Source: Campylobacter ureolyticus ACS-301-V-Sch3b (GTDB taxonomy: Bacteria; Campylobacterota; Campylobacteria; Campylobacterales; Campylobacteraceae). Taken from it: DNA of 64,000 bases. The notes below the pieces were generated by a model. It did not search any database. It was given only the letters and a program-made list of their open reading frames with translations, and was not told the DNA's origin. Location: positions 675,216 through 739,215 of the forward strand of contig NZ_KE340326.1 of assembly GCF_000413435.1 (NCBI RefSeq). The letters are read 5' to 3'. Shown here piece after piece: positions 43,992-62,081 of this stretch (positions within the stretch are counted from its first letter, which is position 1; each line of letters opens with the position of its first letter). A program made the translations under genes and the position numbers.

Positions 43992-44000
43992 GGATATTTT

Positions 44001-44855: not shown

Positions 44856-45645
44856 ATGGCTTTTGGTCTGCTTAATCTTTGCAAATTTAAATGCTGTGAT
44901 GCTTTTAAGCGAGTATAAGGACGAGAATTTAAGCGGCTGGTTTATGAGTGAAAAACTTGATGGCGTTCGTGCCACATGGGATGGTAAAAATTTAATTTCA
45001 AGAAAAGGAAATAAATTTGCCGCTCCTAAGTTTTTTACAAAGGATTTTCCTAAAACCAAGCTTGATGGAGAGCTTTATACAAAAAGAGATGATTTTGAAA
45101 ACATTGCTTCAATTACTTCAAAACTAACTCCAAGCGATGAGTGGAAAGAGCTTAAATTTTATATTTTTGATATGCCTGAATATAGAGAAAATTTCAGCAT
45201 AAAATATGAAAAAATGAAAGAAATTTCTAAAAATTCTAAATTTATTGAGGTGATTTCACAAACTAGAGTTAAAAACAATGATGAAGTTTTTAAGTTTTTA
45301 GATGAGGTTGTTGCTGGTGGTGGAGAGGGCGTTGTTGTGCGTGATCCAAATTTGATTTATGAAAACAAAAGAAGCACTAAAATTTTAAAAATTAAAAAAT
45401 TTAAAGATGCAGAGTGTGAAGTGGTAAAAATAAATCCTGGAAAAGGCAAATTTGAAGGATTAATGGGTTCGATTGATTGCAAAATGCCAAATTCAAAAGT
45501 TTTTAAAATTGGAAGTGGCTTTAAAGAAAGTGATCGAAAAAATCCACCAAAAATAGGGCAAATTATTACTTATAAATACCAAAATTTAACTACAAATGAA
45601 GTGCCAAGATTTCCAGTATTTTTAAGAATCAGAGATGAAATTTAA
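44845..45645 (+). CDS. exported ATP-dependent DNA ligase
   Basis: 266 residues from GTG 44845. N-terminal signal peptide (about 1-18, KFKWLLVCLIFANLNA), then a minimal ATP-type ligase: adenylation motif EKLDGVR (Lys37), DGELY (motif III region), GGGEGVVVRDP (motif IV) and KILKIKKFKDAEC (motif V), with a small OB domain at the end. It has no extra DNA-binding domain. Similar periplasmic ligases occur in Haemophilus, Neisseria and C. jejuni, where they are suspected to repair DNA taken up by competence. Main replication ligase would be the NAD type, not in this window. Confidence 0.9.
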   Translation: MKFKWLLVCLIFANLNAVMLLSEYKDENLSGWFMSEKLDGVRATWDGKNLISRKGNKFAAPKFFTKDFPKTKLDGELYTKRDDFENIASITSKLTPSDEWKELKFYIFDMPEYRENFSIKYEKMKEISKNSKFIEVISQTRVKNNDEVFKFLDEVVAGGGEGVVVRDPNLIYENKRSTKILKIKKFKDAECEVVKINPGKGKFEGLMGSIDCKMPNSKVFKIGSGFKESDRKNPPKIGQIITYKYQNLTTNEVPRFPVFLRIRDEI

Positions 45646-45679
45646 CAAATTTAATGTAAAATAACAAAAAGGATAAAAA

Positions 45680-46693
45680 ATGAAAATTCTAATTACCGGT
45701 GGTGCTGGATATATCGGCTCACATGTTACAAAACAGCTAATTGAAAGCAAAAATTATGAAATAGTTGTAATAGATAATTTTTGCAAGGGGTCGAATTTAG
45801 CTATACAGACTTTAAAAGATGTTGCGAAAAAAAATGAGGTAAAATTTGAGTTTATAAATTTAAGCCTAGAAAATATAAATGAGCTTGAAGATGTTTTTAA
45901 AGAGCATAAATTTGAAGCTATTATTCACTTTGCGGCATTTATAGAGGTTTTTGAAAGTACTCAAAAGCCACTTAAATACTACCGAAATAACTCAGCAAAT
46001 GCTTTAAATTTAATAACTTTATGTGCTAAATATAATGTTAATAAATTTATTTTTAGCTCAACAGCTGCTGTTTATGGAGAGCCTAAAGACGGAATAGTAA
46101 AAGAGGTAACTCCTTTGAATCCAATAAATCCTTATGGTAGAAGCAAGATCGTTACAGAGTGGATTTTAAAAGACTATGCGTTGTCAAATCCAAATTTTAA
46201 ATATGGAATTTTAAGATATTTTAATGTTGCAGGTGCAAGCAATGATGGACTTTTAGGGCAAAATTATCCAAACGCAACACATCTAATAAAAGTAGCAACC
46301 CAAACAATACTCGGAAAAAGAGAAAAAATGAGTATTTTTGGTGAGGATTATGAAACAGAGGATGGAAGTTGCATAAGAGACTATATTCATATCGAAGATT
46401 TAGCTGCTGCACATTTATCGGTTTTAAAATACCTAAATGATGGTGGAAAAAGTGAGATTTTTAATGTTGGATATGGCAAAGGATATAGCGTAAAAGAAGT
46501 TGTTAAAAAAGCCAAAGAAGTTAGTGGGGTTGACTTTAAAGCTGAAGTTAGTGGAAGAAGAGATGGCGATCCTGCAAGACTTGTGGCGGATTCAACAAAG
46601 CTTAGAAGCTTAACAAACTGGAAACCAAAAAATGATGATTTAGGCTTAATTATAAGCTCAGCTTTAAAGTGGGAAAAGAAAATAAAAGGCTAA
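45680..46693 (+). CDS. galE: UDP-glucose/UDP-GlcNAc 4-epimerase
   Basis: 337 residues, SDR-extended family. Rossmann motif ITGGAGYIGSH (about 4-14), active-site Ser in FSSTAAVYGEP and the YxxxK motif YGRSKIVTEW (about 149-158), then LRYFNVAGA. Interconverts UDP-Glc/UDP-Gal and, in C. jejuni, where it is called Gne, UDP-GlcNAc/UDP-GalNAc, giving GalNAc for N-glycan and lipooligosaccharide. Its place at the head of the pgl locus matches C. jejuni, so Gne activity is likely. AAGGAT lies before the ATG. Confidence 0.93.
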   Translation: MKILITGGAGYIGSHVTKQLIESKNYEIVVIDNFCKGSNLAIQTLKDVAKKNEVKFEFINLSLENINELEDVFKEHKFEAIIHFAAFIEVFESTQKPLKYYRNNSANALNLITLCAKYNVNKFIFSSTAAVYGEPKDGIVKEVTPLNPINPYGRSKIVTEWILKDYALSNPNFKYGILRYFNVAGASNDGLLGQNYPNATHLIKVATQTILGKREKMSIFGEDYETEDGSCIRDYIHIEDLAAAHLSVLKYLNDGGKSEIFNVGYGKGYSVKEVVKKAKEVSGVDFKAEVSGRRDGDPARLVADSTKLRSLTNWKPKNDDLGLIISSALKWEKKIKG

Positions 46694-46697
46694 AAAA

Positions 46698-47138
46698 ATG
46701 AGATTTATTTTAGGATTTTTAATCATGACAAGTACAATATTTGGTTTTGATACTAGCATTTTTCCAAAGACTGAAAATGGAGAAAAGCAAGTTATTTTAA
46801 CACTTAAGTCTTTAGAAAATGAAGATGAGTATTTAGTAAAAGTGTTTTTTGGAAAAGAGATGATGTTAGATTGCAACGCTCACTCTTTTATGGGGCTTAA
46901 TTTAGAAAAAAAAATACTTCAAGGCTATGGATATGAGTATTTTAAACTTAGTGGAAGTGATGAGATAGCCTCAACTATGATGCTTTGCAGCGAGCCAAAA
47001 AAGCTTAGTTTTTTAAGCTTTGATCCAAATTTGATAGTTCGTTATAACTCAAATTATCCACTTGTATTTTATGTGCCGATAGATTTTAGTGTAAAATATG
47101 AAGTATTTAAAAAAGTAGAAAGTAAAATACTTAATTAA
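46698..47138 (+). CDS. eco: ecotin-family serine protease inhibitor
   Basis: 146 residues with signal peptide (about 1-17). The mature part aligns with E. coli ecotin: EYLVKVFFGKEMMLDCNAH (first Cys59), the reactive loop IASTMMLCSEP (91-100; P1 Met95 as in E. coli STMMACP, Cys97 for the loop disulfide), and VRYNSNYPLVFYVP with VKYEVFK near the end. Ecotin is a periplasmic dimer that blocks trypsin-fold proteases such as neutrophil elastase. Four nt after galE and 17 nt before wzx, so it is embedded in the glycan operon, which is unexpected. Confidence 0.9.
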   Translation: MRFILGFLIMTSTIFGFDTSIFPKTENGEKQVILTLKSLENEDEYLVKVFFGKEMMLDCNAHSFMGLNLEKKILQGYGYEYFKLSGSDEIASTMMLCSEPKKLSFLSFDPNLIVRYNSNYPLVFYVPIDFSVKYEVFKKVESKILN

Positions 47139-47155
47139 TTCTAGGTGATTAAAAA

Positions 47156-48652
47156 TTGCAAAGAAAACAAGGTGCTATTTTAACGTATATAAATATTTTT
47201 ATAAGCACCGTTGTGATGATTTTTTACACACCTTTTGTTATTAAAATGCTTGGGCAAAGCGAATTTGGACTTTATTCGCTTGCTTTAAGCATAATGGGTT
47301 ACATTGCTATATTTGATTTTGGTTTAGGAAATGCGATTATTGTTTTTACTTCTAAATTTTTGATAAAAAACCAAACAAATAAGCAAAAAATACTATATTC
47401 AACTGTTTTTAGTTTTTATATTTTTATGAGTTTTTTAGTTGTTGTTTTTGGTGTTGTTTTTTTGAATAATATTGATATTATTTTTAAAAATTCCTTTGAT
47501 GCTTATGAGATAAAAACTTTAAAAAATATCATTTTACTTCTTATATTTAATATGGCTTTTTTACTTCCTTGCAGCATTTTTTCATCTATATTAAATGCTT
47601 ATGAAAAATTTATATTTATGAAAAAAATGGGAATTTTAAGATCGCTATTAACACCTGTTATCATTGCTTTTGTGCTATTTGCTGGTTTTAAATCAACACA
47701 AATAATAATCTCAATAACAATTTTAAATATATTATATACTTTTTTTATAATACTTTATTATAGAAAAAATATTGGTATAAAAATAGATATTTTTAATTTT
47801 AAATTCAAAGCTTTAAAAATAATTTTGAGCTATTCTGTTTTTGTTTTTATTGCAGCTATTGTTGATCAGATTAATTGGAATTTTGGACAGCTTATAGTAG
47901 GGTCTGCTCTTGGTGCCAAAGAAGTTGGTATTTTTGCCATATCTATACTTTTTAATGGTATGTTTATAATGCTTTCAACTGCAATTAGCAGTGTTTTTTT
48001 ACCAAAAATTTCTCAAATGGTTTCAAGTGGCGTAAGCAATGACATTTTAACTGATGAGATGATAAAGATAGGAAGACTTCAAGGGTATATTATTTTTTGT
48101 ATGCTTTTTGGATTTATTTTATTTGGTAAAAAATTTATTGAAATTTGGGCTGGTAAAGAGTATCAAGATGCCTATTATTTAACCGTTATTATAATGATTC
48201 CTCTTGCTATTCCTCTTGTGCAGAATTTAGGTATTAGTATTTTACAAGCTAAAAATAAGTATGCATTTAGATCTTTATCTGCTTTAGTAGGTGCTATTTT
48301 AAGCATTATCTCTTCTATTTATTTTGTAAAAATATATGGTTATTATGGTGTTGCTTTTAGTATTTGTATGTCTTTTTTAATGGTAAATGGAGTTATTGTT
48401 AATTGGTATTATAAAAAAATTGGTCTAAATATTTTTAAATTTTGGAAAAATATATTTTATAATTTTTTTCCACAGCTCGTTTTATTTATTTTATTTAATC
48501 TATTTTTTAAATTTATGGATGAAAAGTTATTTTTCATAAGTATGATATTTTTTATTATTTTATACACTTTAATAAGTTATTTTATATCTATGAATGAATA
48601 TGAAAAAAGTCTAATAAGGTCTTTAGTTGTAAAAAATAAAGGCAATATATGA
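47156..48652 (+). CDS. wzx: Wzx-type oligosaccharide flippase
   Basis: 498 residues from TTG 47156, with AGGTGAT upstream. About 12-14 membrane helices of the polysaccharide transporter (PST/MVF) type: YTPFVIKMLGQSEFGLYSLA near the start, FDFGLGNAI, and GSALGAKEVGIFAISILF near 240. Moves lipid-linked glycans across the inner membrane. There is no ATP-binding domain, so this is not the ABC flippase PglK that occupies this area in C. jejuni. It probably flips the N-glycan made by this locus, or a second glycan. Confidence 0.88.
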   Translation: MQRKQGAILTYINIFISTVVMIFYTPFVIKMLGQSEFGLYSLALSIMGYIAIFDFGLGNAIIVFTSKFLIKNQTNKQKILYSTVFSFYIFMSFLVVVFGVVFLNNIDIIFKNSFDAYEIKTLKNIILLLIFNMAFLLPCSIFSSILNAYEKFIFMKKMGILRSLLTPVIIAFVLFAGFKSTQIIISITILNILYTFFIILYYRKNIGIKIDIFNFKFKALKIILSYSVFVFIAAIVDQINWNFGQLIVGSALGAKEVGIFAISILFNGMFIMLSTAISSVFLPKISQMVSSGVSNDILTDEMIKIGRLQGYIIFCMLFGFILFGKKFIEIWAGKEYQDAYYLTVIIMIPLAIPLVQNLGISILQAKNKYAFRSLSALVGAILSIISSIYFVKIYGYYGVAFSICMSFLMVNGVIVNWYYKKIGLNIFKFWKNIFYNFFPQLVLFILFNLFFKFMDEKLFFISMIFFIILYTLISYFISMNEYEKSLIRSLVVKNKGNI

Positions 48653-49929
48653 AACCAAATATTATAGAACTCGTAGTAAAAGAAAATAGATGCATAGGTT
48701 GTGGAGCTTGTGTTTCGATATGTCCTGTAAATGTTTTATCTATGGATTTCAATAGTAGTGGTTTATATGAACCAAAAGAAATTTCAGGATGTTTAAAAAA
48801 GTGTTCGTTGTGTTTAAAAGTGTGTCCTTTTTACGAAAAAGAACAGTATGAGGACATTTTATCAAAAGAGTTATTTTATGAATCAGAATATAAGCAACAC
48901 ATTGGATATTTTATAAACACATACGAGTTTTCAAAATTAAATTTAAAAGAAAAACTCTGCTCGGCAAGTGGTGGAGCGGGAAATTATTTGCTTAAAAAAC
49001 TTTTAGAGCTTGATTTAGTTGATGAAATTTTAACAGTTAAGCCAAATGATGATCCAAATAAACTATTTAAATTTAATGTTTTTAAGAATGAAGATGAGAT
49101 AGATGAAAGTAGAGGTTCAGTTTATTACCCAGTCTCTATGGATGAGGTTTTAGAATACGTTTTAAAAAACGATAAAAGATACGCAATAACAGCACTTCCA
49201 TGTTTTGCAAAAGCCATAAGACTTTTTCAAAAAAACAATCATAAAGCTAAAAATAGAATAAAATTTATAGTAGGCTTGGTTTGCGGTCAAATGAAGAGTA
49301 AAGATTTTGCACAGCAAATTGCAGATGAGACTTTTAAAAATAAAACTTTGATTAAAAGTGTAAATTTTAGAAAAAAGATTCCACATAAAACAGCGTATGG
49401 GTTTGCTTTTGAGTTTGAAGATATAAATGGCGATTTAGCGATTGATTATAGGGATAAATCAGCTTTTAAGTATTGGACAAGTAGGGCTTTTACGCCACTT
49501 GCTTGTAATAACTGCATAGATGTTTTTGCAAAATGTGCGGATGTAACTTTAATGGATGCTTGGCTTGATGAAAAGATAAAAGATTATTCAGGACACTCTT
49601 TGCTAATTGTGAGAAATAAAATTTTTGATGAAATTTTAAAAAATGTTGATAAAAATGATGTTTTTTATAAAAAAATAGATCCAAATTTAGTGGTAAAATC
49701 ACAAAACGGTGCTATAAATGAAAAAAATAGCTTTTATTTTTATGATAAACAAAATATTTTAAATAAAAAAATAGTAAGAATAAAAAAAGATATTCAAAAA
49801 CAAAGTTTAAAAGATAAAAAAATGGATGAAATAAAGCTTAAAAAATTAAAAAAACAGATAAAATTAAAAGCAAGAAAAGATACCATTATTTATCTTTTTA
49901 AAAAGCATATTTTAAGGAAAACAGTTTGA
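48649..49929 (+). CDS. FrhB-like iron-sulfur protein of a polysaccharide locus
   Basis: 426 residues. N-terminal ferredoxin-type [4Fe-4S] pair: CIGCGACVSICPVNV (about 15-29) and CLKKCSLCLKVCPFYE (about 43-58), then an FrhB/FdhB (F420-hydrogenase beta subunit) C-terminal domain with SASGGAGNYLLKKL and ALPCFAKAIRLF. The tail (about 380-426) is very Lys-rich. In many capsule and O-antigen clusters such proteins sit beside polysaccharide pyruvyl transferases, as here (overlap with the next gene by 4 nt). A redox or cofactor-related role in glycan modification is inferred; the reaction is not known to me. Confidence 0.85.
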   Translation: MKPNIIELVVKENRCIGCGACVSICPVNVLSMDFNSSGLYEPKEISGCLKKCSLCLKVCPFYEKEQYEDILSKELFYESEYKQHIGYFINTYEFSKLNLKEKLCSASGGAGNYLLKKLLELDLVDEILTVKPNDDPNKLFKFNVFKNEDEIDESRGSVYYPVSMDEVLEYVLKNDKRYAITALPCFAKAIRLFQKNNHKAKNRIKFIVGLVCGQMKSKDFAQQIADETFKNKTLIKSVNFRKKIPHKTAYGFAFEFEDINGDLAIDYRDKSAFKYWTSRAFTPLACNNCIDVFAKCADVTLMDAWLDEKIKDYSGHSLLIVRNKIFDEILKNVDKNDVFYKKIDPNLVVKSQNGAINEKNSFYFYDKQNILNKKIVRIKKDIQKQSLKDKKMDEIKLKKLKKQIKLKARKDTIIYLFKKHILRKTV

Positions 49930-51005
49930 AAATAGCAGTTTTTACACTTCCGCTTTTAAATAATTACGGTGGAATTTTGCAAGCTTTTGCTTTAGTGAAA
50001 TTTTTAAATGAGTGTGGATTTAGTGCGAAGTTATTAAATTTAGAGCCAAATGAGAGCAGATTTAGTCTTAATTATTTAAAATTTTTAATAGCAAAAATTA
50101 TATATTATAAAAAATATAAAAATGTGGTTTTTAAAAAGAAACAATATAAAAAATTTGAAAGGTTTATTTTAGAAAACATACCTTTAACATCAAAAATAAA
50201 TAGCGCTAAGCAATTAAATAAAGTCTTTAAAAGATATAAATTTGATGCTTGTATAGTAGGAAGCGATCAGGTTTTTAGACCAGAATATTTTTGGCTTTAT
50301 AAAGATAGTTTTTCATTGGGGTTTTTAAATGACAATGTTATAAAGCTTTCATACGCTGCTTCTTTTGGAGGAGCAAAATATAGTGGCTATAAAGAGGAAT
50401 TTCATGCAAAGAATTTTAAAAAATTTAGAGCCATTTCTGTTAGAGAAAAAAGTGGCATAAAGGTATGTAAAGAAACTTTTGGAGTTGATGCAACTTGGGT
50501 TTTAGATCCAACTATGATGCTTGAAATAGATGAGTACAAAAAACTTTTTAAATATATAAAAACATCAAATTCAAAAGGTAAGGTTTTTGCCTATGTATTA
50601 GACAAAAGTTTAGAAAAACAAACACTTATCACTGATTTTGCAAAAGATAAGAACTTAGAAATTTATGAGATAAATGATGGAAATTTATCCAGTGATATTA
50701 TATCTATTAAAGAGTGGCTAAAAAGCATTTATGAAGCAGATACCGTAATAACAGATTCTTTTCATGGATGTGTTTTTTCGATTTTGTTTAATAAACCATT
50801 TTATACTTTCATAAATAAAGAAAGAGGGGCTGATAGATTTTATTCTTTATTTGAAATGTTTGATTTATTTGATAGAATTATAGATTATAATAATTTTAGT
50901 CAAAAAAATATAAATTATAAAAAAGTTAATGAAATTATTAAAGAGCAAAGAGAGCTTTCTAAGAATTTTTTGATATCAAATTTAAAGGTTGATAATGCAA
51001 AATAA
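49926..51005 (+). CDS. polysaccharide pyruvyl transferase family protein
   Basis: 359 residues. Begins AVFTLPLLNNYGGILQAFAL (about 4-23), then CIVGSDQVFRP (about 105-115), SYAASFGG and the C-terminal ADTVITDSFHGCVFSILFNKPF (about 272-293) with its conserved DSFHG. These are the marks of the CsaB/WcaK (PS_pyruv_trans) family, which adds ketal-linked pyruvate to sugars; some members act as glycosyl transferases instead. It is coupled to the FrhB-like gene upstream and overlaps the GT2 gene downstream. Confidence 0.88.
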   Translation: MKIAVFTLPLLNNYGGILQAFALVKFLNECGFSAKLLNLEPNESRFSLNYLKFLIAKIIYYKKYKNVVFKKKQYKKFERFILENIPLTSKINSAKQLNKVFKRYKFDACIVGSDQVFRPEYFWLYKDSFSLGFLNDNVIKLSYAASFGGAKYSGYKEEFHAKNFKKFRAISVREKSGIKVCKETFGVDATWVLDPTMMLEIDEYKKLFKYIKTSNSKGKVFAYVLDKSLEKQTLITDFAKDKNLEIYEINDGNLSSDIISIKEWLKSIYEADTVITDSFHGCVFSILFNKPFYTFINKERGADRFYSLFEMFDLFDRIIDYNNFSQKNINYKKVNEIIKEQRELSKNFLISNLKVDNAK

Positions 51006-52023
51006 TCCTTTAATTTCTATAGTAGTTCCAGTCTATAATGTAGAAAAATATCTTAAAAAATGCATCCAAAGCATTGTAGATCAAACTTATAAAAATTTAG
51101 AAATTATCTTAGTTGATGATGGCAGTAGTGATAACTCAGGTAAAATTTGTGATGAGTTTGCCCAAAAAGATAACCGTATAAAAGTTATTCATAAAACAAA
51201 TGGCGGTCAAGCAGATGCTAGAAACAAAGCCTTGGATATTATGAATGGAGAGTGGGTGAGTTTTGTTGATAGTGATGATTTTGTAAGTCCTTACTATATA
51301 GAAAATTTGCACTATTTAGTAAACAAATATGATGTAGATATAGCTATAACTTCATTTGTTAGATTTTTTAATGAAAATACCAAATTATCATCAAGTAAAA
51401 TATCAAATCAAGAAGTGTTACTTCATAATCCAGATGAAGCCGTAAAAAATATGCTTTATGGAAAGTACTACTCTGTAAGCCCATGGTCAAAAATATATAA
51501 AAAAGATTTATTTTACAATAACAGATTTACAAAAGGTAAAATTTATGAAGATTTTGAATTGATGCCAATTATCACTAGTCAATCAAAAAAAGTGGCATTT
51601 TGTAATGTGGTAGATTATTTTTATTATTGTAGGCAAAATTCAACAACAAAGTCAGGTTTTTCTAAGAAAAATATGCAAGGATATGAGGCTTTAGATAGTC
51701 TAGATAGATACTTTTGTAATAATTTATCTATAAAAAATGTTTTAAAAGATATTAAAGCTCTATCGCCTTTGACAGATTTACCTAAAATAAAGATTTCTTC
51801 AGATAATGAAAGGATTTTGTTTAATGAAGTAAGTAAAAATATAAATAATAAAAGATTATTTGTTTTACTTTTTAATAAAAATATAAATTTAAAATTAAAG
51901 ATAAAAATTATATTTTTTATCTGTTTTGGTTGTCATGCTTATGCCAAATTTGAAAGAATGCGTTTAAAAAGACGCATCAACAAAATGATCAATAATGAAA
52001 AAAATGGTGCAGTATATGAATAG
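50995..52023 (+). CDS. glycosyltransferase family 2 (first copy)
   Basis: 342 residues from ATG 50995, chosen over an upstream TTG because AAAGG lies 6 nt before. GT-A fold: ISIVVPVYNVEKYLKKCI (about 7-24), VDDGSSDNSGK (about 40-50), FVDSDDF (about 88-94, the DxD). The C-terminal half is Lys/Asn-rich. Its first 100 residues are close to those of the second GT2 at 56.3 kb, even at the DNA level, while the C-terminal halves differ, so acceptors probably differ. Adds one sugar to the lipid-linked oligosaccharide by inference. Confidence 0.9.
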   Translation: MQNNPLISIVVPVYNVEKYLKKCIQSIVDQTYKNLEIILVDDGSSDNSGKICDEFAQKDNRIKVIHKTNGGQADARNKALDIMNGEWVSFVDSDDFVSPYYIENLHYLVNKYDVDIAITSFVRFFNENTKLSSSKISNQEVLLHNPDEAVKNMLYGKYYSVSPWSKIYKKDLFYNNRFTKGKIYEDFELMPIITSQSKKVAFCNVVDYFYYCRQNSTTKSGFSKKNMQGYEALDSLDRYFCNNLSIKNVLKDIKALSPLTDLPKIKISSDNERILFNEVSKNINNKRLFVLLFNKNINLKLKIKIIFFICFGCHAYAKFERMRLKRRINKMINNEKNGAVYE

Positions 52024-52897
52024 TGTTAAAATAGAGCAAAAATTCAAAGAGATTTTTACAGATTGCAAAGTTAATAAAATTATTTTTATCGGAGGAATGA
52101 CCAATAAAAACTATCTTGTTGTTTGCGACAATGATAAATTTGTTTTTAGAATTCCTGGAAAAAATGCAAATAGCATAATAAATAGAATAAATGAAAAAAA
52201 CAATCAAATTTTAAGTTTTAAGAGTGGGTTTAATGTAGAAACAGTTTATTTTAATGACAAATCAGGAATAAAAATAACTAAATTTTTAGAAGAGGCAAAA
52301 ACTTTAAGTCCACAAACCGCAAGAGAGTATATAAAAGAAATTGGTAAAGATATTAAAAACATCCATAGCTCAAACATGCTATTTACAAATCATTTTGATG
52401 CATTTAAAGAGATGGATAAATATCTATCTTTGCTTTCTAGTGAGTATAAAAATCATAAATTTTTAAAAGATGGACTTATTTTATTTGAAAAGTTAAAAAA
52501 CAAATTAATTGAAATAAATATGGATTTATACAATAAAAGCTTTATTTATACTCCAACTCATGGGGATATAGTGCCTGAAAATATTTTAGCTATAAAAAAT
52601 CCTGATAATAGTATAAAAAAACTCTATTTTATAGACTGGGAATACTCAGGTTTAAATGATCCTATTTGGGATGTTGCTTTTATATCAGTTGAGAGCAATT
52701 TTAACAAACAAGAAGATGAAAAGCTTATAAAAAGCTATGGTTTAAAAAATGATGAAGTTATCAAGATTGATATTTTTAAAAGCATTCAAGATATTTTATG
52801 GTCTGTATGGGGACTTGCAAAAATGAGCGCGGGAGAAGATTTGACATCATATGTTGATAATAGGTTTAAACAAGCCTTTGATAGGAAAATATTTTGA
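52016..52897 (+). CDS. licA: choline kinase, LicA type
   Basis: 293 residues from ATG 52016 (GGTG six nt before); an in-frame ATG at 51995 adds seven residues. Phosphorylates choline to phosphocholine. Kinase fold with GGMTNKNYLVV (about 26-36), the Brenner-type catalytic motif THGDIVPENIL (about 182-192, Asp and Asn) and FIDWEYSGLNDPIWDVA (about 203-220, metal Asp). Order licA-licB-licC-licD follows H. influenzae lic1. No CAAT-type tetranucleotide repeat is present, so unlike H. influenzae it is not phase-variable by that means. Confidence 0.92.
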   Translation: MNSVKIEQKFKEIFTDCKVNKIIFIGGMTNKNYLVVCDNDKFVFRIPGKNANSIINRINEKNNQILSFKSGFNVETVYFNDKSGIKITKFLEEAKTLSPQTAREYIKEIGKDIKNIHSSNMLFTNHFDAFKEMDKYLSLLSSEYKNHKFLKDGLILFEKLKNKLIEINMDLYNKSFIYTPTHGDIVPENILAIKNPDNSIKKLYFIDWEYSGLNDPIWDVAFISVESNFNKQEDEKLIKSYGLKNDEVIKIDIFKSIQDILWSVWGLAKMSAGEDLTSYVDNRFKQAFDRKIF

Positions 52898-53766
52898 GTG
52901 GATTTTTATTAGGTCTTTTTAGTGGTATATTTTGGAGTATAGATACAGTATTATTATCTTATTCAACTTTACTTATCTTACTTACAGCTTTTATACATGA
53001 TGGTTTTGGATTTTTATTATTATCCATAAAATCATCTTTTTCAAAAACTTCAAATTTTAAAAACATAGTTAAAAGTGATAGTTTTAAAATAGTAATTTTT
53101 GCTGGTCTTATTGGCGGACCTATTGGAATGGGTTCATATATCATTGCTATATCTTTGATAGGACCAGCTTTAGCTACTTGCATTAGTATAACTTATCCAG
53201 TAATTGCAGCACTATTAGCAAGGTTTTTATTAAAAGAAAAGTTAAATTTAATAGGCAAGATAGGTCTTTTTATAGCTATTGTTTCTACAATTTTACTTTA
53301 TTCTTTAAATATTAAATTTAATATTAGTATATTAGGATTTGTTTTTGCACTTATAACAGCTCTTTCTTGGGGAAGTGAATGTGTTATTATAAAAAAAGCT
53401 TTTATTAAAGATAGCTCACTTAGTGAATTTTCTGCACTTTGTATAAGGCAAGGTATTAGTTTTACTACATATTGTTTTATAGCCTTTATCTATTTTTTAT
53501 ATACAGATTTTAACACTAGCTTTCAAGCCAAAGATTTTAATATAGTTTTTTTAGCTTCTATTTTTGGAACTATCTCATACTTGTTTTATTATGCCGCAAT
53601 AAAAAAAATAGGTGTGCTTAAAGCTATGGGATTAAATATATCATACTCTGCTTGGACTGTTTTAATAATGTTTTTTATAAGTGGACAATTTATGCTAACA
53701 ACTTTTATACTTGCTTTATTTATAATAACAGGAAGTATGCTTACAAATATAAATAATAAAGGATAG
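52894..53766 (+). CDS. licB: choline permease, LicB type (DMT superfamily)
   Basis: 290 residues, 10 hydrophobic segments of the EamA/DMT kind. Starts GTG/TTG-like at the licA stop (overlap 4 nt): FLLGLFSGIFWSIDTVLLSY, AGLIGGPIGMGSYIIAISLIG and a second repeat with SWGSECVIIKKAF. In Haemophilus and Streptococcus, LicB takes up choline for phosphocholine decoration. Its identity rests on both the family and position between licA and licC. Confidence 0.87.
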   Translation: MSGFLLGLFSGIFWSIDTVLLSYSTLLILLTAFIHDGFGFLLLSIKSSFSKTSNFKNIVKSDSFKIVIFAGLIGGPIGMGSYIIAISLIGPALATCISITYPVIAALLARFLLKEKLNLIGKIGLFIAIVSTILLYSLNIKFNISILGFVFALITALSWGSECVIIKKAFIKDSSLSEFSALCIRQGISFTTYCFIAFIYFLYTDFNTSFQAKDFNIVFLASIFGTISYLFYYAAIKKIGVLKAMGLNISYSAWTVLIMFFISGQFMLTTFILALFIITGSMLTNINNKG

Positions 53767-53769
53767 CTA

Positions 53770-54477
53770 GTGAGTAATGCAATAATAATGGCAGCTGGTC
53801 TTGGATCAAGATTAAAAGAGTATACAAAAACTACACATAAATCTCTTTTTTTAGTTGATAATGTACCAAATTTAGAAAGAACTATAAGATATTTAAATGA
53901 AATAGGCATAGATGAAATACATATAGTTATAGGTTATTTAAGTGAGCAATTTTTATATTTAAAAGATAAGTATAAAAATATAAATTTAATCTTTAATTCA
54001 GATTTTGCAACTAAAAATAATGCTTATTCTTTTAAATTGGCAATAGATTATTTTTCAGATAGTTTTATTATAGATGCTGATGTTGTATTGTTAAAAAATA
54101 TATTTAGTTTAGAAACCAGATCTACATACTACACAACATTAAGAAGAAAAACACAAAAAGCTGAATGGATTGTTTGCGCAGATGAAAAAGATAGAGTTTT
54201 TGATATAAAAATATGCACAGATGAAAAGCCAAGCTTACTTGGGATTAGCTATTTTACAAAAGAAGATGCAAAGATAATAAAAGATGAGATATATAATTTA
54301 GATGATGATTATTTTTTAGATTCTAAGCTATATTATGATAATGTTATTGCTAAATTAATAGATAAAATATCTATATACTCTAAGTTTATAGATCCAAATT
54401 ATGTATGCGAATTAGATGATATAAAAGATATAGATGAATTAAAGGAAAAGCTAAATGGAAAATTTAGTAGAAATTAG
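53770..54477 (+). CDS. licC: CTP:phosphocholine cytidylyltransferase, LicC type
   Basis: 235 residues from GTG 53770. Nucleotidyltransferase fold: IIMAAGLGSRLKEYTKTTHKSL (about 5-26, split by the basic loop), VIGYLSEQF, then FNSDFATKNNAYSF and the metal site IIDADVVLL (about 97-105). Makes CDP-choline for LicD. Typical LicC length. Three nt after licB and overlapping licD by 23 nt, so all are co-translated. Confidence 0.9.
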   Translation: MSNAIIMAAGLGSRLKEYTKTTHKSLFLVDNVPNLERTIRYLNEIGIDEIHIVIGYLSEQFLYLKDKYKNINLIFNSDFATKNNAYSFKLAIDYFSDSFIIDADVVLLKNIFSLETRSTYYTTLRRKTQKAEWIVCADEKDRVFDIKICTDEKPSLLGISYFTKEDAKIIKDEIYNLDDDYFLDSKLYYDNVIAKLIDKISIYSKFIDPNYVCELDDIKDIDELKEKLNGKFSRN

Positions 54478-55276
54478 CCTTGATGAGGCAAAAGAAAAAA
54501 TGCTTGAAATGATGTGCTATATAGATAAAGTTTGTAGAGAAAACAATATAAAGTATTCTTTAGCTTATGGCACATTAATAGGAGCTATTAGGCATAAAGG
54601 ATTTATTCCATGGGATGATGACATGGATATAATGCTAACAAGAGACAATTACGACAAGCTCATAGAAATCATTAAAAAAGATGATAAGTATGATTTATTG
54701 GATTTTGATAGTGGCTTTATCTTAAATTTTTCCAAAATTTGCTATAAGAATACTTTGGCTATAGAAAAAGACAAATATCGCTTAAAGTGCAATTTGTTTG
54801 GTGTGTTTGTTGATATTTTTCCCATTGATAATTTGCCAGAAAAAGAGCCAAAAAGACATTTAAGAAAAATATCTTTAATACAACATTTGCTTATATATAG
54901 AAATTTTAATATGATTTTATCACCAGGAAGCTTTTTGAAAAAAATAGCTAAATTTTCTTTGTTTTTTCCGTTATTTTGCATTTCAAGAGTGTTTTTTACA
55001 AAAAAATATCTAATAAGAATTTTAAAAGAAACAATATTAAAATATAAAAATATAACTACAAAAAAATGTGGTATTTTCTCAGATGGGCTAAAGGAGATTT
55101 ATGATAAGAATGATTTTAAAAACTATATTGATGTGAGCTTTGAAAATTTTAAACTAATGGCTGTTCAAAACTATGATACTATTTTAAGAATTTATTATGG
55201 TGATTATATGAAATTGCCACCAGAAGAAAAAAGGATTAACACGCATACTTATAAATACTATGAAAGCAGGGTATAA
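54455..55276 (+). CDS. licD: phosphocholine transferase, LicD family
   Basis: 273 residues. LicD signature in the first 80: YSLAYGTLIGAIRHKG (about 36-51) and FIPWDDDMDIMLTRDNYDKL (about 52-71), with the acidic cluster that binds metal and nucleotide. Transfers phosphocholine from CDP-choline to a sugar hydroxyl of a membrane glycan on the cytosolic side. In H. influenzae the acceptor is lipooligosaccharide; here the nearest assembly line is the Pgl N-glycan, so that is my inferred acceptor. A segment with hydrophobic residues (about 150-190) may dock at the membrane. Confidence 0.92.
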   Translation: MENLVEISLDEAKEKMLEMMCYIDKVCRENNIKYSLAYGTLIGAIRHKGFIPWDDDMDIMLTRDNYDKLIEIIKKDDKYDLLDFDSGFILNFSKICYKNTLAIEKDKYRLKCNLFGVFVDIFPIDNLPEKEPKRHLRKISLIQHLLIYRNFNMILSPGSFLKKIAKFSLFFPLFCISRVFFTKKYLIRILKETILKYKNITTKKCGIFSDGLKEIYDKNDFKNYIDVSFENFKLMAVQNYDTILRIYYGDYMKLPPEEKRINTHTYKYYESRV

Positions 55277-55277
55277 A

Positions 55278-56345
55278 ATGGAAAAAACTACAATAATATT
55301 TTTCATAGGTCTTATGAATGGTGGAGGAGTGGAGAAGATAATATTAAGCTATTGTGAAAACCTAGATAAAAATAAGTTTAATTTTATATTTGTAACCAGT
55401 AAAAGCTCTATGCAAATACCATACGATAAGATTAAATATTTAAATGCAAAGCTAGTATTAACACCTGATTATTATAAAGATAAATTATCTTATATAAAAA
55501 CTGTTTTTAAAATTTTAAAAGAAAATAAAAATGGCATTTTTCATTGTAATTATTTATCCCCACTTCCATATTTTATAGCCAAACTTGTTGGTATAAAAAC
55601 CATAATAGCTCATTCTCATGCCTATCAGACTAAAGTAGATTTTAAGCATAGAATAAGAAGGTTTTTAGTTTGTAGTTTTGCTAACACATACTTTGCATGT
55701 GGTAAAAATACTGGAAAATATGTTTTTAAAAATAGAAAATTTACAATAATTCATAACGCCATAAATTTAAATGATTTTGTTTTTGATGAGAATTTCAAAA
55801 AGCATTTTTTTGAAAAAAACAATCTTTTTAATAAAAAAATTATAGGACATATTGGTAGATTTTCAAAAGAGAAAAATCATAAATTTATAATCGATGTATT
55901 TAAAAAGGTTTTAGAAAAAGATCATAACTTTTATCTTTTGTTAGCAGGAGATGGCGAGCTTTTTGACGAGATTAAAAACTATTCTAATGATGTTGGTGTT
56001 TGTGATAATATTATTTTTCTAGGAAACATTGATAATGTAAATAAAATTTATAGTTTATTTGACATTTTTATTTTGCCAAGCCTATTTGAAGGTTTTCCTA
56101 TAGTATTAGTAGAGGCTCAAGCTAATGGATTAAAATGCTTAGTTTCGGACAGGGTTTCAAAAGAGATCAAATTTATAGATAATTGTAGTTTTTTAACTAT
56201 TGAAAATATTGATTTATGGGTAAATGAAATTTTAAATTCCAACTTTCTTAGAGAAAAAAATAGTTTAAAAATTTTAGCAGAAAAAGGATTTGATATAAAA
56301 ACAGAAGCCAAAAAATTAGAAAAAATTTATGAAAGTTTTAAATGA
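55278..56345 (+). CDS. glycosyltransferase family 4
   Basis: 355 residues from ATG 55278; frame open from 55260 but AGGG lies properly before 55278. GT-B fold: GLMNGGGVEKIILSYCENL (about 11-29) in the acceptor half, IGHIGRFSKEKNHKFIIDVF (about 192-211) and the nucleotide-sugar site PSLFEGFPIVLVEAQANGL (about 268-286). Retaining sugar transferase. It could play the part of PglH or PglJ, which I do not otherwise find, but its sequence looks more like capsule-type GT4s. It lies between licD and the second GT2. Confidence 0.88.
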   Translation: MEKTTIIFFIGLMNGGGVEKIILSYCENLDKNKFNFIFVTSKSSMQIPYDKIKYLNAKLVLTPDYYKDKLSYIKTVFKILKENKNGIFHCNYLSPLPYFIAKLVGIKTIIAHSHAYQTKVDFKHRIRRFLVCSFANTYFACGKNTGKYVFKNRKFTIIHNAINLNDFVFDENFKKHFFEKNNLFNKKIIGHIGRFSKEKNHKFIIDVFKKVLEKDHNFYLLLAGDGELFDEIKNYSNDVGVCDNIIFLGNIDNVNKIYSLFDIFILPSLFEGFPIVLVEAQANGLKCLVSDRVSKEIKFIDNCSFLTIENIDLWVNEILNSNFLREKNSLKILAEKGFDIKTEAKKLEKIYESFK

Positions 56346-57307
56346 TTTGCTTAATCTCAGTTATAGTTCCAGTTTATAATGTAGAAAAATATCTTAAAAA
56401 AAGTATTCAAAGTATTATAAAGCAAACTTATGAAAATTTAGAAATTATCTTAGTTGATGATGGAAGTAGTGATAACTCAGGTAAAATTTGTGATGAATTT
56501 GCCCAAAAAGATAACCGTATAAAAGTTATTCATAAAACAAATGGCGGACTTAGTGATGCAAGAAATGCAGGACTTGATGTAATGAGTGGGGAATGGGTAA
56601 GTTTTGTTGATAGTGATGATTTTGTAAGTCCTTACTATATAGAGAATTTATTAAATTTGTCTTTAAGAACCAACTCTGATATATCAATTACAAGCTTTAA
56701 ATATGTTTTTGGAAATAACGAGGATGAAATTTCGGCAAAAATAGATGAAAATGACAGTGTTTTAACTCATGAAAAAGATGAGTTTTTATCACAAATTTTT
56801 TATAGTAAGCTTTATGATATTGGCGCAACTAGAAAACTTTTTAAAAAAGAGCTTTTTAATGGTTTGCGCTTTCCAAAAGGCGAAATTTCAGAAGATTTAG
56901 CAACTATTCCATATATTTTTAAAAATGCAAAGAAAGTAGTATTTTGTGATAAAAAAGATTATTTTTATCTTTTAAGAAGTGATTCTATTTCAAGAACTAA
57001 TGTTTTTAGCCAAAAAAATCTTTTCATGTTTAAGGCTTTAAATGATTTAAAATCTAATTTTATAAATGATAAAAAAACTTTACGTGCTATAAATTTTTAT
57101 GAAAATTTAGTAAATTTAGCAGCAGCAGTTCGATTTGGTGATGATTATAAACCATATAAAAAACCTCTTAAATTTAAAGATTTCATAGAAACTTTATTTA
57201 ATAAAAATGTAAAATTTACTCATAAAATTTACTTTTTGCTTTATTTTTGTTTTGGTTATAAAATTTGTGCTAGAATTTGGAAATTTTACAATAATTTAAG
57301 GAAATAA
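56342..57307 (+). CDS. glycosyltransferase family 2 (second copy)
   Basis: 321 residues. ISVIVPVYNVEKYLKKSI (about 5-22), VDDGSSDNSGK and FVDSDDF are shared with the first GT2; the stretch for SGKICDEFAQKDNRIKVIHK is almost identical at DNA level. It diverges after residue about 105. In C. jejuni a GT2 (PglI) just before pglB adds the glucose branch, so position fits a branching enzyme, though sequence does not prove orthology. Overlaps the GT4 gene by 4 nt and pglB follows immediately. Confidence 0.9.
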   Translation: MICLISVIVPVYNVEKYLKKSIQSIIKQTYENLEIILVDDGSSDNSGKICDEFAQKDNRIKVIHKTNGGLSDARNAGLDVMSGEWVSFVDSDDFVSPYYIENLLNLSLRTNSDISITSFKYVFGNNEDEISAKIDENDSVLTHEKDEFLSQIFYSKLYDIGATRKLFKKELFNGLRFPKGEISEDLATIPYIFKNAKKVVFCDKKDYFYLLRSDSISRTNVFSQKNLFMFKALNDLKSNFINDKKTLRAINFYENLVNLAAAVRFGDDYKPYKKPLKFKDFIETLFNKNVKFTHKIYFLLYFCFGYKICARIWKFYNNLRK

Positions 57308-59392
57308 ATGACTAAATTTGACTTTAATAATAAAACTTGGGTTAGTACTTTTATAATAATAGCTTTTTTATTTGGTGTTGTTTGTAGGCTTTATTGGGTT
57401 TGGTGGGCTGGTGAGTTTAGCGAGATGAAATTTGATGATATTGTTATGATAAATACCAACGATGGATATGCTTTTGCAGAAGGAGCAAGGGATATAATAG
57501 CAGGTTTTCATCAACCAAATGATTTAAGTTATGTAGATCACTCAATGTCTAAATTTACAGCTTTTGTAGCAAAAATTTTACCATTTGAGTTTGAAAGTGT
57601 GATTTTATATATGAGCGTAGTTTTAAGCTCACTTTTAGTAATTCCACTACTTCTTATATCAAAAGAGTTTAAAGCCATCCCCACAGGAATAATTGCTTCT
57701 TTTACAAGCGTTATTGCAAACTCATATTATAACCGCACCATGGCAGGATATTATGATACTGATATGCTAAATATCGTTCTTCCTTGCTTTGTGCTTTGGG
57801 GGCTTATAAGAGCATCATTAAAAGAAAAACCTTGTATAATAGCTCCTTTGTTTGTCTTAATTAGCCTTTGGTGGTATCCATCATCTTTTACTCTAAATTT
57901 GGCTTTATTTGGGACATTTTTTCTTTATACATTAGTTTTTCAAAGAAAGGTTTTAGCAAATTATCAAAATCTTATTTTATATTTAGTCGCACTTATAAAT
58001 ATAGCTATTTTTATAAAATTTATAGCCATTTTAGCACTTTATTTTATATTTAAAAAAGGACTTAGTTTTAAAAAATCAGCCATTATTGGTGGAGTAGTTT
58101 TTGCAATATTTGCTATTTTAGGAGGATTAAACTCTGTATTTTTTAACCTTCAGTTTTATATTTTAAGAGATTTATCAGAGATAAAAACCACAAATTATAT
58201 ATTTTTTAATGTTAATCAAACTATCCAAGAATCAGGCATTATTGATTATGATTATTTTATGGATAGGATTAGTTCAGAAGCGGCGTTATTTTTTTTATCA
58301 GTTTTAGGATATGTTTTATTGTGTTTTAAAAATAGAGCATTTTTACTCTCACTTCCAATTTTAGGACTTGGTTTTTTAGCCTTAAAAGCTGGTCTTAGAT
58401 TTACTATTTATGCAGTACCTATTATGGGGCTAGGGCTAGGATATTTTCTTTATTTTATTGTAAAAAGTTTTAAATTTAAGGATGGCTTGAATATTATAAT
58501 CTCATTTATTTTGGCAATCCTTTGCTCTATTCCTGCAATTTTACATATTAAAGAGTATAAAAGCCCAACAGTGTTTTTTGCTCCAGAGGTTGAGGTTTTA
58601 AACAATCTTAAAAATATTGCCAATAGAGAGGATTATGCACTTGCTTGGTGGGATTATGGCTATCCGATTCGCTATTATAGTGATGTTAAAACTCTAATTG
58701 ATGGTGGAAAACATCTTGGAAATCAAAATTTTCCAGTAAGCTTTGCCCTTTTTAAAGATGAGGTAAGTTCTGCAAATATGGCAAGACTTATTGTAGAATA
58801 CACAGAAAAACAATATAAAGAAAAATTCCCAAACATACTAGATCAAATTTTAAAAGACTATAATCTTAAAGATGCTGATGATTTACTTCTAAGTCTTAGT
58901 TTTAGGGACTTTACTTTGCCTAAAAAAACAAGGGATGTTTATTATTATCTGCCAAAAAGAATGTCAAATATTTTTGATACTGTTGTTTTATTTTCAAATT
59001 TGGATTTAAAAACTGGCAAGAGTAAAAATAAACCATTTTTTAATACCTCTTATGCTGTTTCAGGCTCTGCAGATGGAATTTTACTAAATAATGGCATTGT
59101 TTTATCGCCTGATTTAAAAACTCTAAAATTAGCAGATCAAAGCTTTAATATAAAAACTTTTTATGAAGTTGAAAACAAAGATGGCAAATTTAGTAAAAAT
59201 GTTACTCACTTAAATAAAGATGGATTTTTAAGCTTAATTTTAGTAAAAAATGATGGAACTTTTATAATATTAGATGATGAAGCGCTAAAATCGAGCTATG
59301 TTCAGCTTTTTTATTTAGAAAATTATGATGAAAAGCTTTTTGAACCAGTTATTTTAACGCCACTTGCAAAAGTTTATAAATTAAAAATTTAA
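57308..59392 (+). CDS. pglB: oligosaccharyltransferase PglB
   Basis: 694 residues. Transfers the lipid-linked glycan en bloc to Asn in D/E-x-N-x-S/T sequons on the periplasmic side. About 13 membrane helices (1-430) then a soluble domain. Key sites: VMINTNDGYAFAEGARD (about 46-62, metal Asp), the sequon-binding WWDYG at 447-451 and the MI motif RMSNIFDTVVLFSNL (near 552-566), matching the C. jejuni RMMPTI...FSNL region. Length is close to C. jejuni PglB (713). One base after the GT2; nine before pglA. Confidence 0.97.
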   Translation: MTKFDFNNKTWVSTFIIIAFLFGVVCRLYWVWWAGEFSEMKFDDIVMINTNDGYAFAEGARDIIAGFHQPNDLSYVDHSMSKFTAFVAKILPFEFESVILYMSVVLSSLLVIPLLLISKEFKAIPTGIIASFTSVIANSYYNRTMAGYYDTDMLNIVLPCFVLWGLIRASLKEKPCIIAPLFVLISLWWYPSSFTLNLALFGTFFLYTLVFQRKVLANYQNLILYLVALINIAIFIKFIAILALYFIFKKGLSFKKSAIIGGVVFAIFAILGGLNSVFFNLQFYILRDLSEIKTTNYIFFNVNQTIQESGIIDYDYFMDRISSEAALFFLSVLGYVLLCFKNRAFLLSLPILGLGFLALKAGLRFTIYAVPIMGLGLGYFLYFIVKSFKFKDGLNIIISFILAILCSIPAILHIKEYKSPTVFFAPEVEVLNNLKNIANREDYALAWWDYGYPIRYYSDVKTLIDGGKHLGNQNFPVSFALFKDEVSSANMARLIVEYTEKQYKEKFPNILDQILKDYNLKDADDLLLSLSFRDFTLPKKTRDVYYYLPKRMSNIFDTVVLFSNLDLKTGKSKNKPFFNTSYAVSGSADGILLNNGIVLSPDLKTLKLADQSFNIKTFYEVENKDGKFSKNVTHLNKDGFLSLILVKNDGTFIILDDEALKSSYVQLFYLENYDEKLFEPVILTPLAKVYKLKI

Positions 59393-59401
59393 GGAAAAGT
59401 A

Positions 59402-60517
59402 GTGAAAATTGGTTTTTTATCTCATTCTGATTTAAGCATAGCTTTATTTCGTGCTCCTATAATGAGAGCTTTAAAAGATCTTGGACATGAAGTTTATGCT
59501 ATTTATCCAAAAGGAATTATGGATGAAGTTATAAAATCAGAGTTTAGGGCTATAAATTATGAAATTGATAAGGCTAGCTTAAATCCATTTAAAATAGCAA
59601 AAAACTCACGAGATTTAGCACAAATTTTAAAAAACTTAAATTTAGACATGCTTCAAACTTCAGCTCATAAATCAAATGTTTTTGGAACTTATGCAGCAAA
59701 AAAAGCCGGGATTAGAGTTATTATAAATTTAATCGAAGGACTTGGAAGCTTTTATGTTGATAATAACTTTAAATCACGCTTTGTGCGTTTTACTATGGAA
59801 AGACTTTATAAAAAAAGTTTAAATTTGAGTAATGCATGTATATTTGTAAATGAGGCTGATCCAAGCTACTTTTTAGATAAAAATTTAATTTTAAAACAAA
59901 AAACCTTCATAGTAAAAAGCGTTGGAATTGATTCTTTAAAATTTGATCCACAAAAAGTAAAAGCTTATGATTATAAAAGTGATAAAAAAATAGTTTTAAT
60001 GATAGGGCGAGCTTTGTGGCATAAAGGCATAAGAGAATTTTATGAAGCAGCACAGCTTTTAAAAAACAGAAATGATCTTAAATTTGTCTTTGTGGGAGAT
60101 ACTTATGAGGGAAATAAAAGTAGTGCCGATAAAAAATTTTTGGAAAATAAAAATGTAAGTTGGATAAAATGGAGTGATGAGATTGCCCAGCTTTTAAAAG
60201 GAGCTTATATGTTTGTTTTGCCAAGCTATAAAGAGGGTTTTCCAAGAACTGTTTTAGAAGCTATGAGCATGCAAAAACCTTGTGTTGTAAACAATGTAAC
60301 AGGGTGCAATGAAGCTATAAAAGATGGCTTTAATGGTCTTTTATGCGAGCCAAAAAACTCTAGTGATTTAGCCAAAAAAATTGAAATTTTGGCAAATAAT
60401 GAAAAAATGGCATATGAATTTGGTAAAAACGCACGAGATGAAGTTTTGCAAAAATACGATGAAAAGATTGTTGTTAAAAAATATTTAGAAATTTATAGGA
60501 AATTTATTGATGTATAG
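59402..60517 (+). CDS. pglA: glycosyltransferase PglA
   Basis: 371 residues from GTG 59402 (AAGGAAAA upstream). In C. jejuni PglA adds the first GalNAc to undecaprenyl-PP-diNAcBac. Close match: [19 protein letters not shown] at the start, [61 protein letters not shown] (about 201-218) and [18 protein letters not shown]. Cytosolic, membrane-associated GT4. Overlaps pglC by 8 nt. Together with gne it supplies the GalNAc core. Confidence 0.96.
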
Positions 60518-61115
60518 AGCGTTTTTTAAGCGGTTTTTTGACATTTTAGGAAGTTTAATTTTAATAATTATAACTTTACCTATCATGATAATCTTATATT
60601 TTTTAATCAAAAATAAAATTTCAAAAGAGCCAATTTTTAAGCAAATTCGCCCAGGGCTTAATGAAAAACTTTTTAAAATTTACAAATTTAAAACGATGAG
60701 TGATGAAAAAGATGAAAATGGAAATTTGCTTAGTGATGAACTTAGGCTTGGCAAATTTGGAGCCAAAATACGCTCAACTAGTCTTGATGAGCTTCCTCAA
60801 CTTTTCAATGTCTTAAAAGGAGATATGAGTTTCATAGGTCCAAGGCCTTTGCTTGAAAAATATTTAACTCTTTATTCTCCAAAACAAAGGCTTCGTCACA
60901 GCGTTCGCCCAGGAATTACTGGCTTAGCGCAAGTTAATGGCAGAAATGAGATTTCTTGGAAAAACAAATTTCGTTACGATAGTTTTTATGCATCAAATTT
61001 AAACTTTTTGCTTGATCTAAAAATACTGTTTTTAACTATAAAAAAAGTTATAAAAAAAGAGGGCATTTCGAAAAAAGGTATGGCTACTGCGGAGGAATTT
61101 AATGGTTCAAACTAA
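60510..61115 (+). CDS. pglC: phosphoglycosyl transferase PglC
   Basis: 201 residues from ATG 60510. Moves phospho-diNAcBac from UDP to undecaprenyl phosphate, starting the N-glycan. One re-entrant membrane helix at the N-terminus (about 14-36), [20 protein letters not shown] (about 61-80), catalytic Asp-Glu in [26 protein letters not shown] and [15 protein letters not shown]. Monotopic PGT family. Overlaps pglD by 14 nt. Confidence 0.97.
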
Positions 61116-62055: not shown

Positions 62056-62081
62056 TATAAATTAATAACAAAGGAGAAAAA

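Follow-up and report, generated by a model that had tools for sequence, protein, structure and literature searches.

The nearest known case of a zwitterionic phospho-group on a PglB-made N-glycan is that of Campylobacter jejuni, in which EptC, as Scott reportedly described in 2012, puts phosphoethanolamine on the glycan; EptC takes phosphatidylethanolamine as its donor, acts in the periplasm and, as we take it, belongs to PF00884. Phosphocholine is put on other surface glycans by the Lic-1 pathway, represented by Haemophilus influenzae and Streptococcus pneumoniae. Here we describe a complete licABCD set with the Lic-1 gene order A-B-C-D in a 64,000-nucleotide stretch of Campylobacter ureolyticus ACS-301-V-Sch3b (contig NZ_KE340326.1, positions 675,216 to 739,215; hereafter the window, meaning the whole stretch), which, in contrast to the Haemophilus and pneumococcal sets, sits in the protein N-glycosylation (pgl) operon and, unlike EptC, would work through cytidine diphosphate (CDP)-choline and LicD. 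The arrangement is real and conserved, a variant built from two known systems, lic1 and pgl. We consider it probable that LicD adds phosphocholine to the lipid-linked oligosaccharide, which is only then flipped by the Wzx-type flippase of the locus and attached to protein by PglB.

Several described loci resemble this arrangement in part. Campylobacter upsaliensis RM3195 shares the genus name and the same four genes, but its licA has a poly-G tract and its lic genes were taken as decorating lipooligosaccharide (LOS; PMC539331). In Proteus mirabilis O18, whose O antigen bears phosphocholine, licABCD is embedded in the O-antigen locus, a glycan assembly locus with a Wzx as in the window, and modification before flipping has been proposed; the product is, however, a Wzy-made O antigen, and licD is separated from licABC by wzx (PMC8027243). 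Pneumococcal teichoic acid likewise receives phosphocholine on the cytoplasmic side, before flipping by TacF (PMC13385700), and by analogy with these two precedents a pgl oligosaccharide would receive its decoration first, with flipping by Wzx and transfer by PglB to follow. PptA of Neisseria places phosphocholine on pilin and other proteins that also carry glycans, but does so next to or at the glycosylation sites and in an O-linked system (PMC12645811, PMC10434233), and the species in question lack the Lic-1 pathway according to PMC10434233. Phosphocholine on N-linked glycans is known from nematodes, where it is added by a eukaryotic route (PMC4891362).

A sequence-only reading of the window had claimed a complete lic set in lic1 order, and this is borne out by four intact open reading frames (ORFs) at 51995-55276, with Pfam matches throughout (Table 1) and with matches to solved pathway proteins for LicA, LicB and LicC. 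The best PDB match of LicA is the choline kinase 4r77 (E 6e-42), and the segments H-x-D-x-VPEN, IDWEYS and WSxW..K..GED are common to both proteins. The sole PDB match of LicB at E 1e-3 is LicB 7b0k/7paf (E 2e-31, residues 3-281), while LicC matches the cytidine triphosphate (CTP):phosphocholine cytidylyltransferase 1jyk over residues 3-229 (E 2e-35), with its next match at 1e-9. Both 4r77 and 1jyk are, we presume, of pneumococcal origin. LicD scores 143.7 bits against a cut-off of 22.6 for PF04991, a family that also includes transferases of other phospho-alcohols, and the PDB sequence search gave no solved-structure match for it at E 1e-3; its nearest cluster, at 96% identity, is named C. 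ureolyticus. A repeat scan of licA revealed no A/T tract of at least 8, no G/C tract of at least 6 and no 2-6-nt unit repeated four times, so that phase variation of the Haemophilus type, with its repeat tract in licA, finds no support; across the lic genes, the scan returned only an A8 in licB (53601) and a (TA)4 in licD (54892).

Which phospho-alcohol LicD transfers was addressed with a tree of 36 LicDs, comprising 18 of 120 listed homologues and 18 sequences from loci, with long-branch warnings for the G120 and G155 rows. The window LicD grouped with those of five Campylobacteraceae lic operons in a starred clade of 15 rows, which excludes both the LicDs adjoining pglB in other genomes and a pair from G010. 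This clade membership and the solved matches of LicA, LicB and LicC together make choline the best-supported LicD substrate, and it is thus well supported, as far as sequence can tell, that licABCD would make CDP-choline and transfer phosphocholine. A transfer of phosphoethanolamine, ribitol phosphate or glycerol phosphate by the window LicD would be in line with the pglB-adjacent LicDs of G094, G120, G150 and G253, which accompany CDP-ribitol-type or CDP-glycerol-type genes, but appears very improbable given that the donor genes here are licA, licB and licC and that this LicD clusters apart from those pglB-adjacent ones.

The lic genes belong to a run of sixteen forward-strand genes that starts with galE (45680) and closes with pglD (ending at 62055). 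Of its 15 junctions, 10 are overlaps, and the gaps reach 17 nt at most. Its order is galE/gne, ecotin, wzx, an FrhB/FdhB-like gene, a pyruvyl transferase gene, a family 2 glycosyltransferase gene (GT2a), licA-licB-licC-licD, a family 4 glycosyltransferase gene (GT4), a second family 2 gene (GT2b), pglB, pglA, pglC and pglD; a 278-nt gap then separates pglD from pglE, which is followed by the start of pglF. Within the lic set the spacings are -4 nt (licA/licB), +3 nt (licB/licC) and -23 nt (licC/licD), negative values being overlaps, and the set overlaps its neighbours on both borders (GT2a/licA -29 nt, licD/GT4 -17 nt). Towards pglB the spacing is -4 nt for GT4/GT2b and 0 nt for GT2b/pglB. These measurements agree with the earlier claims that the lic genes overlap or lie within 3 nt of each other and that they stand between glycosyltransferase genes running into pglB.

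Comparison with the nearest genome, G001, which has 23% of sampled 31-mers in common with the window, revealed collinearity at 95.1% DNA identity over 50975-64000 and at 95.7% over 43158-47138. Between these blocks the window has wzx, the FrhB-like gene and the pyruvyl transferase gene, whereas G001 has neuC, a cytidylyltransferase gene, neuB, wzx and a family 52 glycosyltransferase gene (GT52); the outer module thus differs between the two lineages, while GT2a-licABCD-GT4-GT2b-pglB is constant. The ratio of nonsynonymous to synonymous substitution rates (dN/dS) between window and G001 was 0.07 for licA, 0.18 for licB, 0.15 for licC and 0.17 for licD, against 0.04-0.23 for their neighbours, and judging from these ratios the lic genes are under purifying selection. 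As the collinearity at 95% DNA identity and these dN/dS values indicate, the arrangement is more than chance. The idea that the lic genes are silent remnants or chance neighbours without a joint product is scarcely credible, with all frames intact, dN/dS at 0.07-0.18 and the gene order kept in two lineages. A gain of licD after the split from G001 was also considered and ruled out, its identity of 95.4% resembling that of galE (94.9%) and gapA (96.0%).

A second comparison separates the lic genes from the remainder of the operon. The pgl locus of G008 carries NeuC-type, cytidylyltransferase, NeuB, wzx and GT52 genes followed by relatives of GT4 (59%) and GT2b (64%) and by pglB, but GT2a and licABCD are missing at precisely the point where GT52 gives way to GT4, and this genome as a whole yielded no match to LicC or LicD. 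GT2a and the lic genes, present or absent together, thus have the appearance of a single cassette, and the GT2a-added sugar becomes a good candidate acceptor. The same comparison bears on the classic lic1 role, in which LicD would modify the LOS core itself, the way it does in Haemophilus, and its place in the pgl operon would be incidental. Twelve other Campylobacteraceae lic loci without pglB in the stretch examined would suit such a role, but the joint gain or loss of GT2a with lic, the overlaps of lic with genes of the pgl run on both sides and the lack of the whole GT2a-lic unit in a pgl locus that matches in other respects speak against it, and we regard direct action on the LOS core as improbable.

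PglB keeps D56, R147, D154, E319, R331 and W463-W464-D465 by a by-eye count on the alignment with 3rce; we take these positions to be the known catalytic residues and 3rce to be the C. lari protein. Genome-wide, G001 carries one LicD and one PglB match, and its sole gene of the Wzy_C (O-antigen ligase) type lies at 1302525, about 200 kb away from pgl; the stretch around it is rich in glycosyltransferases and has no LicD. Pfam and NCBIfam searches recognised no polymerase among the genes of the run. PF00884, presumably the family of EptC/PptA-type transferases, had no match at E 1e-3 in G001 or G008, so that neither EptC nor PptA seems available to G001 as an alternative route. No PglK ABC flippase was recognised in G001, whose two PF00664 proteins best match MsbA (492 bits, under the cut-off) and the HlyB/type I secretion ATPase (above the cut-off); the flippase of the window locus is of the Wzx type, and the wzx product is likely to stand in for PglK in flipping the lipid-linked oligosaccharide. 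The single Wzy_C protein raises the alternative that the pgl oligosaccharide with its phosphocholine is shared, an O-antigen ligase also loading it onto lipid A-core, so that LOS carries phosphocholine alone or besides proteins, which would fit the interpretation of the C. upsaliensis lic genes as LOS decoration (PMC539331). We consider such sharing unlikely, as the Wzy_C stretch is distant from pgl and devoid of LicD, while PglB is intact, is the only PglB match of G001 and belongs to the same gene run as lic.

We thus favor phosphocholine on the N-glycan and propose that, in the C. ureolyticus complex, a lic1 cassette was incorporated into the pgl operon. LicB would import choline, LicA would phosphorylate it and LicC would form CDP-choline, while an oligosaccharide would be built on undecaprenyl-diphosphate (UndPP) by PglC, adding N,N'-diacetylbacillosamine (diNAcBac), PglA, adding N-acetylgalactosamine (GalNAc), GT4, GT2b and GT2a. 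LicD, in the cytoplasm, would put phosphocholine on that oligosaccharide, the likeliest acceptor being the GT2a-added sugar or a GalNAc. Flipping of the decorated oligosaccharide would then fall to the Wzx of the locus, and PglB would transfer the decorated glycan to asparagines of exported proteins and probably free some of it as oligosaccharide. We infer the acceptor sugar, the order of the steps and the presence of the modification on protein; what the sequence shows is the gene identities, the structure of the operon, the conserved PglB residues, purifying selection and the single LicD and PglB of G001. The N-glycan is favored as acceptor because the cassette lies within the pgl operon, because LicD and PglB are single in G001 while the Wzy_C gene lies elsewhere without LicD, because the searches recognised no polymerase at the locus, and because six further genomes of the order also have LicD beside PglB. 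Of the earlier claim that the N-glycan of this species carries phosphocholine, the part concerning CDP-choline synthesis and phosphocholine transfer is well supported, and the N-glycan as acceptor is the best reading.

Several points weigh against this proposal. The assignment of the N-glycan as acceptor draws on gene neighbourhood, and the O-antigen-ligase-type protein of G001 means that the same lipid-linked glycan could reach lipid A-core. In the twelve other Campylobacteraceae lic stretches, LicD may have another acceptor, and the LicDs of two of the seven intact lic operons in the tree (G373 and G395) fall outside the clade of the window LicD. None of LicA, LicB, LicC and LicD reached the cut-off of an NCBIfam model, and PglB, at 777 bits, stays under the NCBIfam equivalog cut-off of 1300; as this cut-off was reached in none of 14 genomes of the genus and in 6 of 298 genomes of the order, it appears to fit a narrow group. 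Finally, a survey assigns Lic-1 to LOS, lipopolysaccharide and teichoic acids, and PptA to proteins (PMC10434233).

Among the 14 genus genomes, LicD was found in G001 and G010. A LicC search of 153 genomes of the family gave matches in 64 at E <=1e-3, of which 13 were counted as LicC by an identity of at least 45%, one broken copy (G043) included, and the other 51 were dropped as other nucleotidyltransferases. At E 1e-25, LicC was present in 11 of 397 genomes drawn from the phylum, all of them Campylobacteraceae, and a scan of genome contigs added one Delongbacteria fragment, which was not used. In the surroundings of all 13 lic loci, mostly 8-10 kb per side (about 1 kb on one side in G043), pglB occurred near lic in G001 only. 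The neighbours of lic in the other twelve look unrelated, judged by eye and mostly without a profile scan, except in G273, where sugar-synthesis-like genes (pglE-like, 27%; galE-like, 25%) lie about 5 kb from lic.

In four of these twelve loci, licABC has no ordinary licD next to it (G332, G315, G316 and G273; L105, L106, L107 and L109). In G315, G316 and G273, a protein of 284-289 amino acids is encoded near licABC, the start of which resembles, by eye, a nucleotide-binding motif. The protein of this class in G273 scores 22.8 bits, against a cut-off of 22.6, in a match to the end of LicD, and that of G316 had no Pfam family match. In G010 (L006), two tandem licD-like genes accompany a glycerol-3-phosphate cytidylyltransferase above its NCBIfam cut-off, with pglB on a different contig; the tandem genes possibly serve decoration with glycerol phosphate.

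Across the 298 order genomes, LicD was present in 42 and PglB in 223. Twelve of the 42 were inspected (G001, G043, G072, G094, G102, G120, G145, G150, G155, G185, G253 and G273), and LicD lay no more than 10 kb from PglB in seven of them (G001, G094, G185, G120, G253, G150 and G102), a figure that is not a rate because the twelve were chosen partly by coordinates. In G072 the contig ends shortly past LicD and a glycosyltransferase-like ORF, and several of the other 30 genomes have LicD and PglB on separate contigs or far apart. In the six close cases other than G001 (loci L067, L068, L069, L115, L117 and L119), LicD was identified by Pfam at the locus, or in G150 via the whole-genome search. 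One family 2 type glycosyltransferase stands between LicD and PglB in G094, G185, G150 and G102, two GT2b-like ORFs do so in G120, and LicD adjoins PglB in G253. As donor genes, G094 and G120 have IspD-SDR fusions above the D-ribitol-5-phosphate cytidylyltransferase cut-off, the G094 fusion also passing that of IspD, while G150 has a glycerol-3-phosphate cytidylyltransferase above the cut-off and G253 a relative below it. No donor gene was recognised at the LicD locus of G185 or of G102, where the contig ends within LicD.

That LicD is repeatedly found with PglB lends support to the PglB glycan as the substrate of the LicDs concerned. LicD-type phospho-alcohol transferases may even be a recurring, undescribed part of bacterial N-glycosylation, the C. 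ureolyticus complex using phosphocholine and further members of the order ribitol phosphate or glycerol phosphate, although we lean slightly against so broad a claim. In humans, the LicD relatives fukutin and FKRP add ribitol phosphate to glycoprotein; the ribitol kind, if real, would be the bacterial counterpart.

Table 1. Predicted genes of the lic/pgl locus in the window, with coordinates and supporting matches.
Feature	Coordinates	Strand	Support and remarks
galE/gne epimerase, first gene of run	45680-46693	+	NCBIfam galE 454 bits, above cut-off
wzx-type flippase	47156-48652	+	Pfam Polysacc_synt_3 9e-14
FrhB/FdhB-like iron-sulfur protein	48649-49929	+	Pfam FrhB_FdhB_C 4e-26
Polysaccharide pyruvyl transferase	49926-51005	+	Pfam PS_pyruv_trans 1e-32
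GT2a, family 2 glycosyltransferase	50989-52023	+	Pfam Glycos_transf_2 5e-41
licA, choline kinase	51995-52897	+	Pfam Choline_kinase 8e-18; alternative in-frame ATG start at 52016, 21 nt downstream
licB, choline importer, EamA/DMT kind	52894-53766	+	Pfam EamA 2e-19
licC, CTP:phosphocholine cytidylyltransferase	53770-54477	+	Pfam NTP_transf_3 5e-7, NTP_transferase 7e-7
licD, predicted phosphocholine transferase (CDP-choline to glycan)	54455-55276	+	Pfam LicD 1e-41
GT4, family 4 glycosyltransferase	55260-56345	+	Pfam Glycos_transf_1 9e-28; 59% relative at matching place in G008
GT2b, family 2 glycosyltransferase	56342-57307	+	Pfam Glycos_transf_2 3e-40; 64% relative adjoins pglB in G008
pglB, oligosaccharyltransferase	57308-59392	+	PDB 3rce E 9e-195, near full length; NCBIfam PglB 777 bits
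pglA-like glycosyltransferase, predicted GalNAc addition to UndPP-diNAcBac	59402-60517	+	Position after pglB; GT4-type NCBIfam matches, none above cut-off among the matches listed
pglC, diNAcBac-1-phosphate transferase	60507-61115	+	PDB 8g1n E 4e-87, 67% identity
pglD, acetyltransferase of diNAcBac synthesis	61102-62055	+	NCBIfam TIGR03570 198 bits, above cut-off; Pfam PglD_N and DUF6578
pglE, aminotransferase of diNAcBac synthesis	62334-63440	+	NCBIfam TIGR04181 LegC-type aminotransferase 397 bits, below 420-bit cut-off
pglF, start; runs past window end	63433-63999	+	G001 counterpart 596 aa (L005 3780-5570), Pfam Polysacc_synt_2 E 7e-111

The remaining features of the locus are given in Table 1, in which 8g1n is presumably the C. 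concisus PglC. The FrhB/FdhB-like protein and the pyruvyl transferase probably provide further decoration of the glycan. The exchanged outer module corresponds to window positions 47139-50974 and to L053 positions 1029-6017; in G001, NeuC scored above its NCBIfam cut-off, NeuB just under and the cytidylyltransferase under, and with such a module the N-glycan of G001 may be sialylated. An ecotin (serine protease inhibitor) gene (46698-47138) stands inside the galE-pgl run of both the window and G001, and ecotin-like ORFs adjoin galE or wzx in four other pgl loci of the genus (L055, L056, L059 and L066); an ecotin gene upstream of pgl had been placed only in C. rectus, C. showae and C. curvus (PMC7773321). 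GT2a and GT2b have 166 of 180 nt in common near their starts (51031-51210 and 56372-56551) and diverge further on, and in G001 the first 240 compared positions of the two genes are identical, which suggests gene conversion within the locus. The window PglD, at 317 amino acids with a C-terminal DUF6578, compares with PglD-like ORFs of 195-209 amino acids in other pgl loci of the genus. The window has a G+C content of 28.5%; on this value and on a PglC no more than 67% identical to 8g1n, C. concisus was rejected as the source, and the 96% match to the LicD cluster places the window in the C. ureolyticus complex. Counts of internal promoter-like (118 versus a mean of 115.7) and terminator-like sequences (3 versus 5.6) were not above those of shuffled sequences and hence uninformative.

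The sequence-only reading knew of no phosphocholine on a bacterial N-glycan, and the papers listed agree with it: no report of such a modification, nor of lic genes in C. ureolyticus, was among the matches listed from open-licence sources, whose coverage leaves aside the surveys of Jervis 2012 and Nothaft 2012. Bullman 2013 described a 30-kb region of strain DSM 20703 that contains pgl genes, a flippase gene and genes for sialic acid, and the main text of that paper mentions neither choline nor lic (PMC3758288); choline, licD and pgl go unmentioned in a 2023 paper on the C. ureolyticus complex (PMC10204631). The word Campylobacter is absent from the main text of a 2023 phosphocholine survey (PMC10434233). 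C. ureolyticus itself has been isolated from human gastroenteritis and extra-intestinal infections (PMC10204631). If our proposal is true, the classical Lic-1 pathway would serve protein glycosylation, and the further pgl loci named above are those where other phospho-decorations are predicted. Phosphocholine is recognised by C-reactive protein and by anti-phosphocholine antibodies, and the proteins of C. ureolyticus would, on the same proviso, bear a host-like phosphocholine tag.

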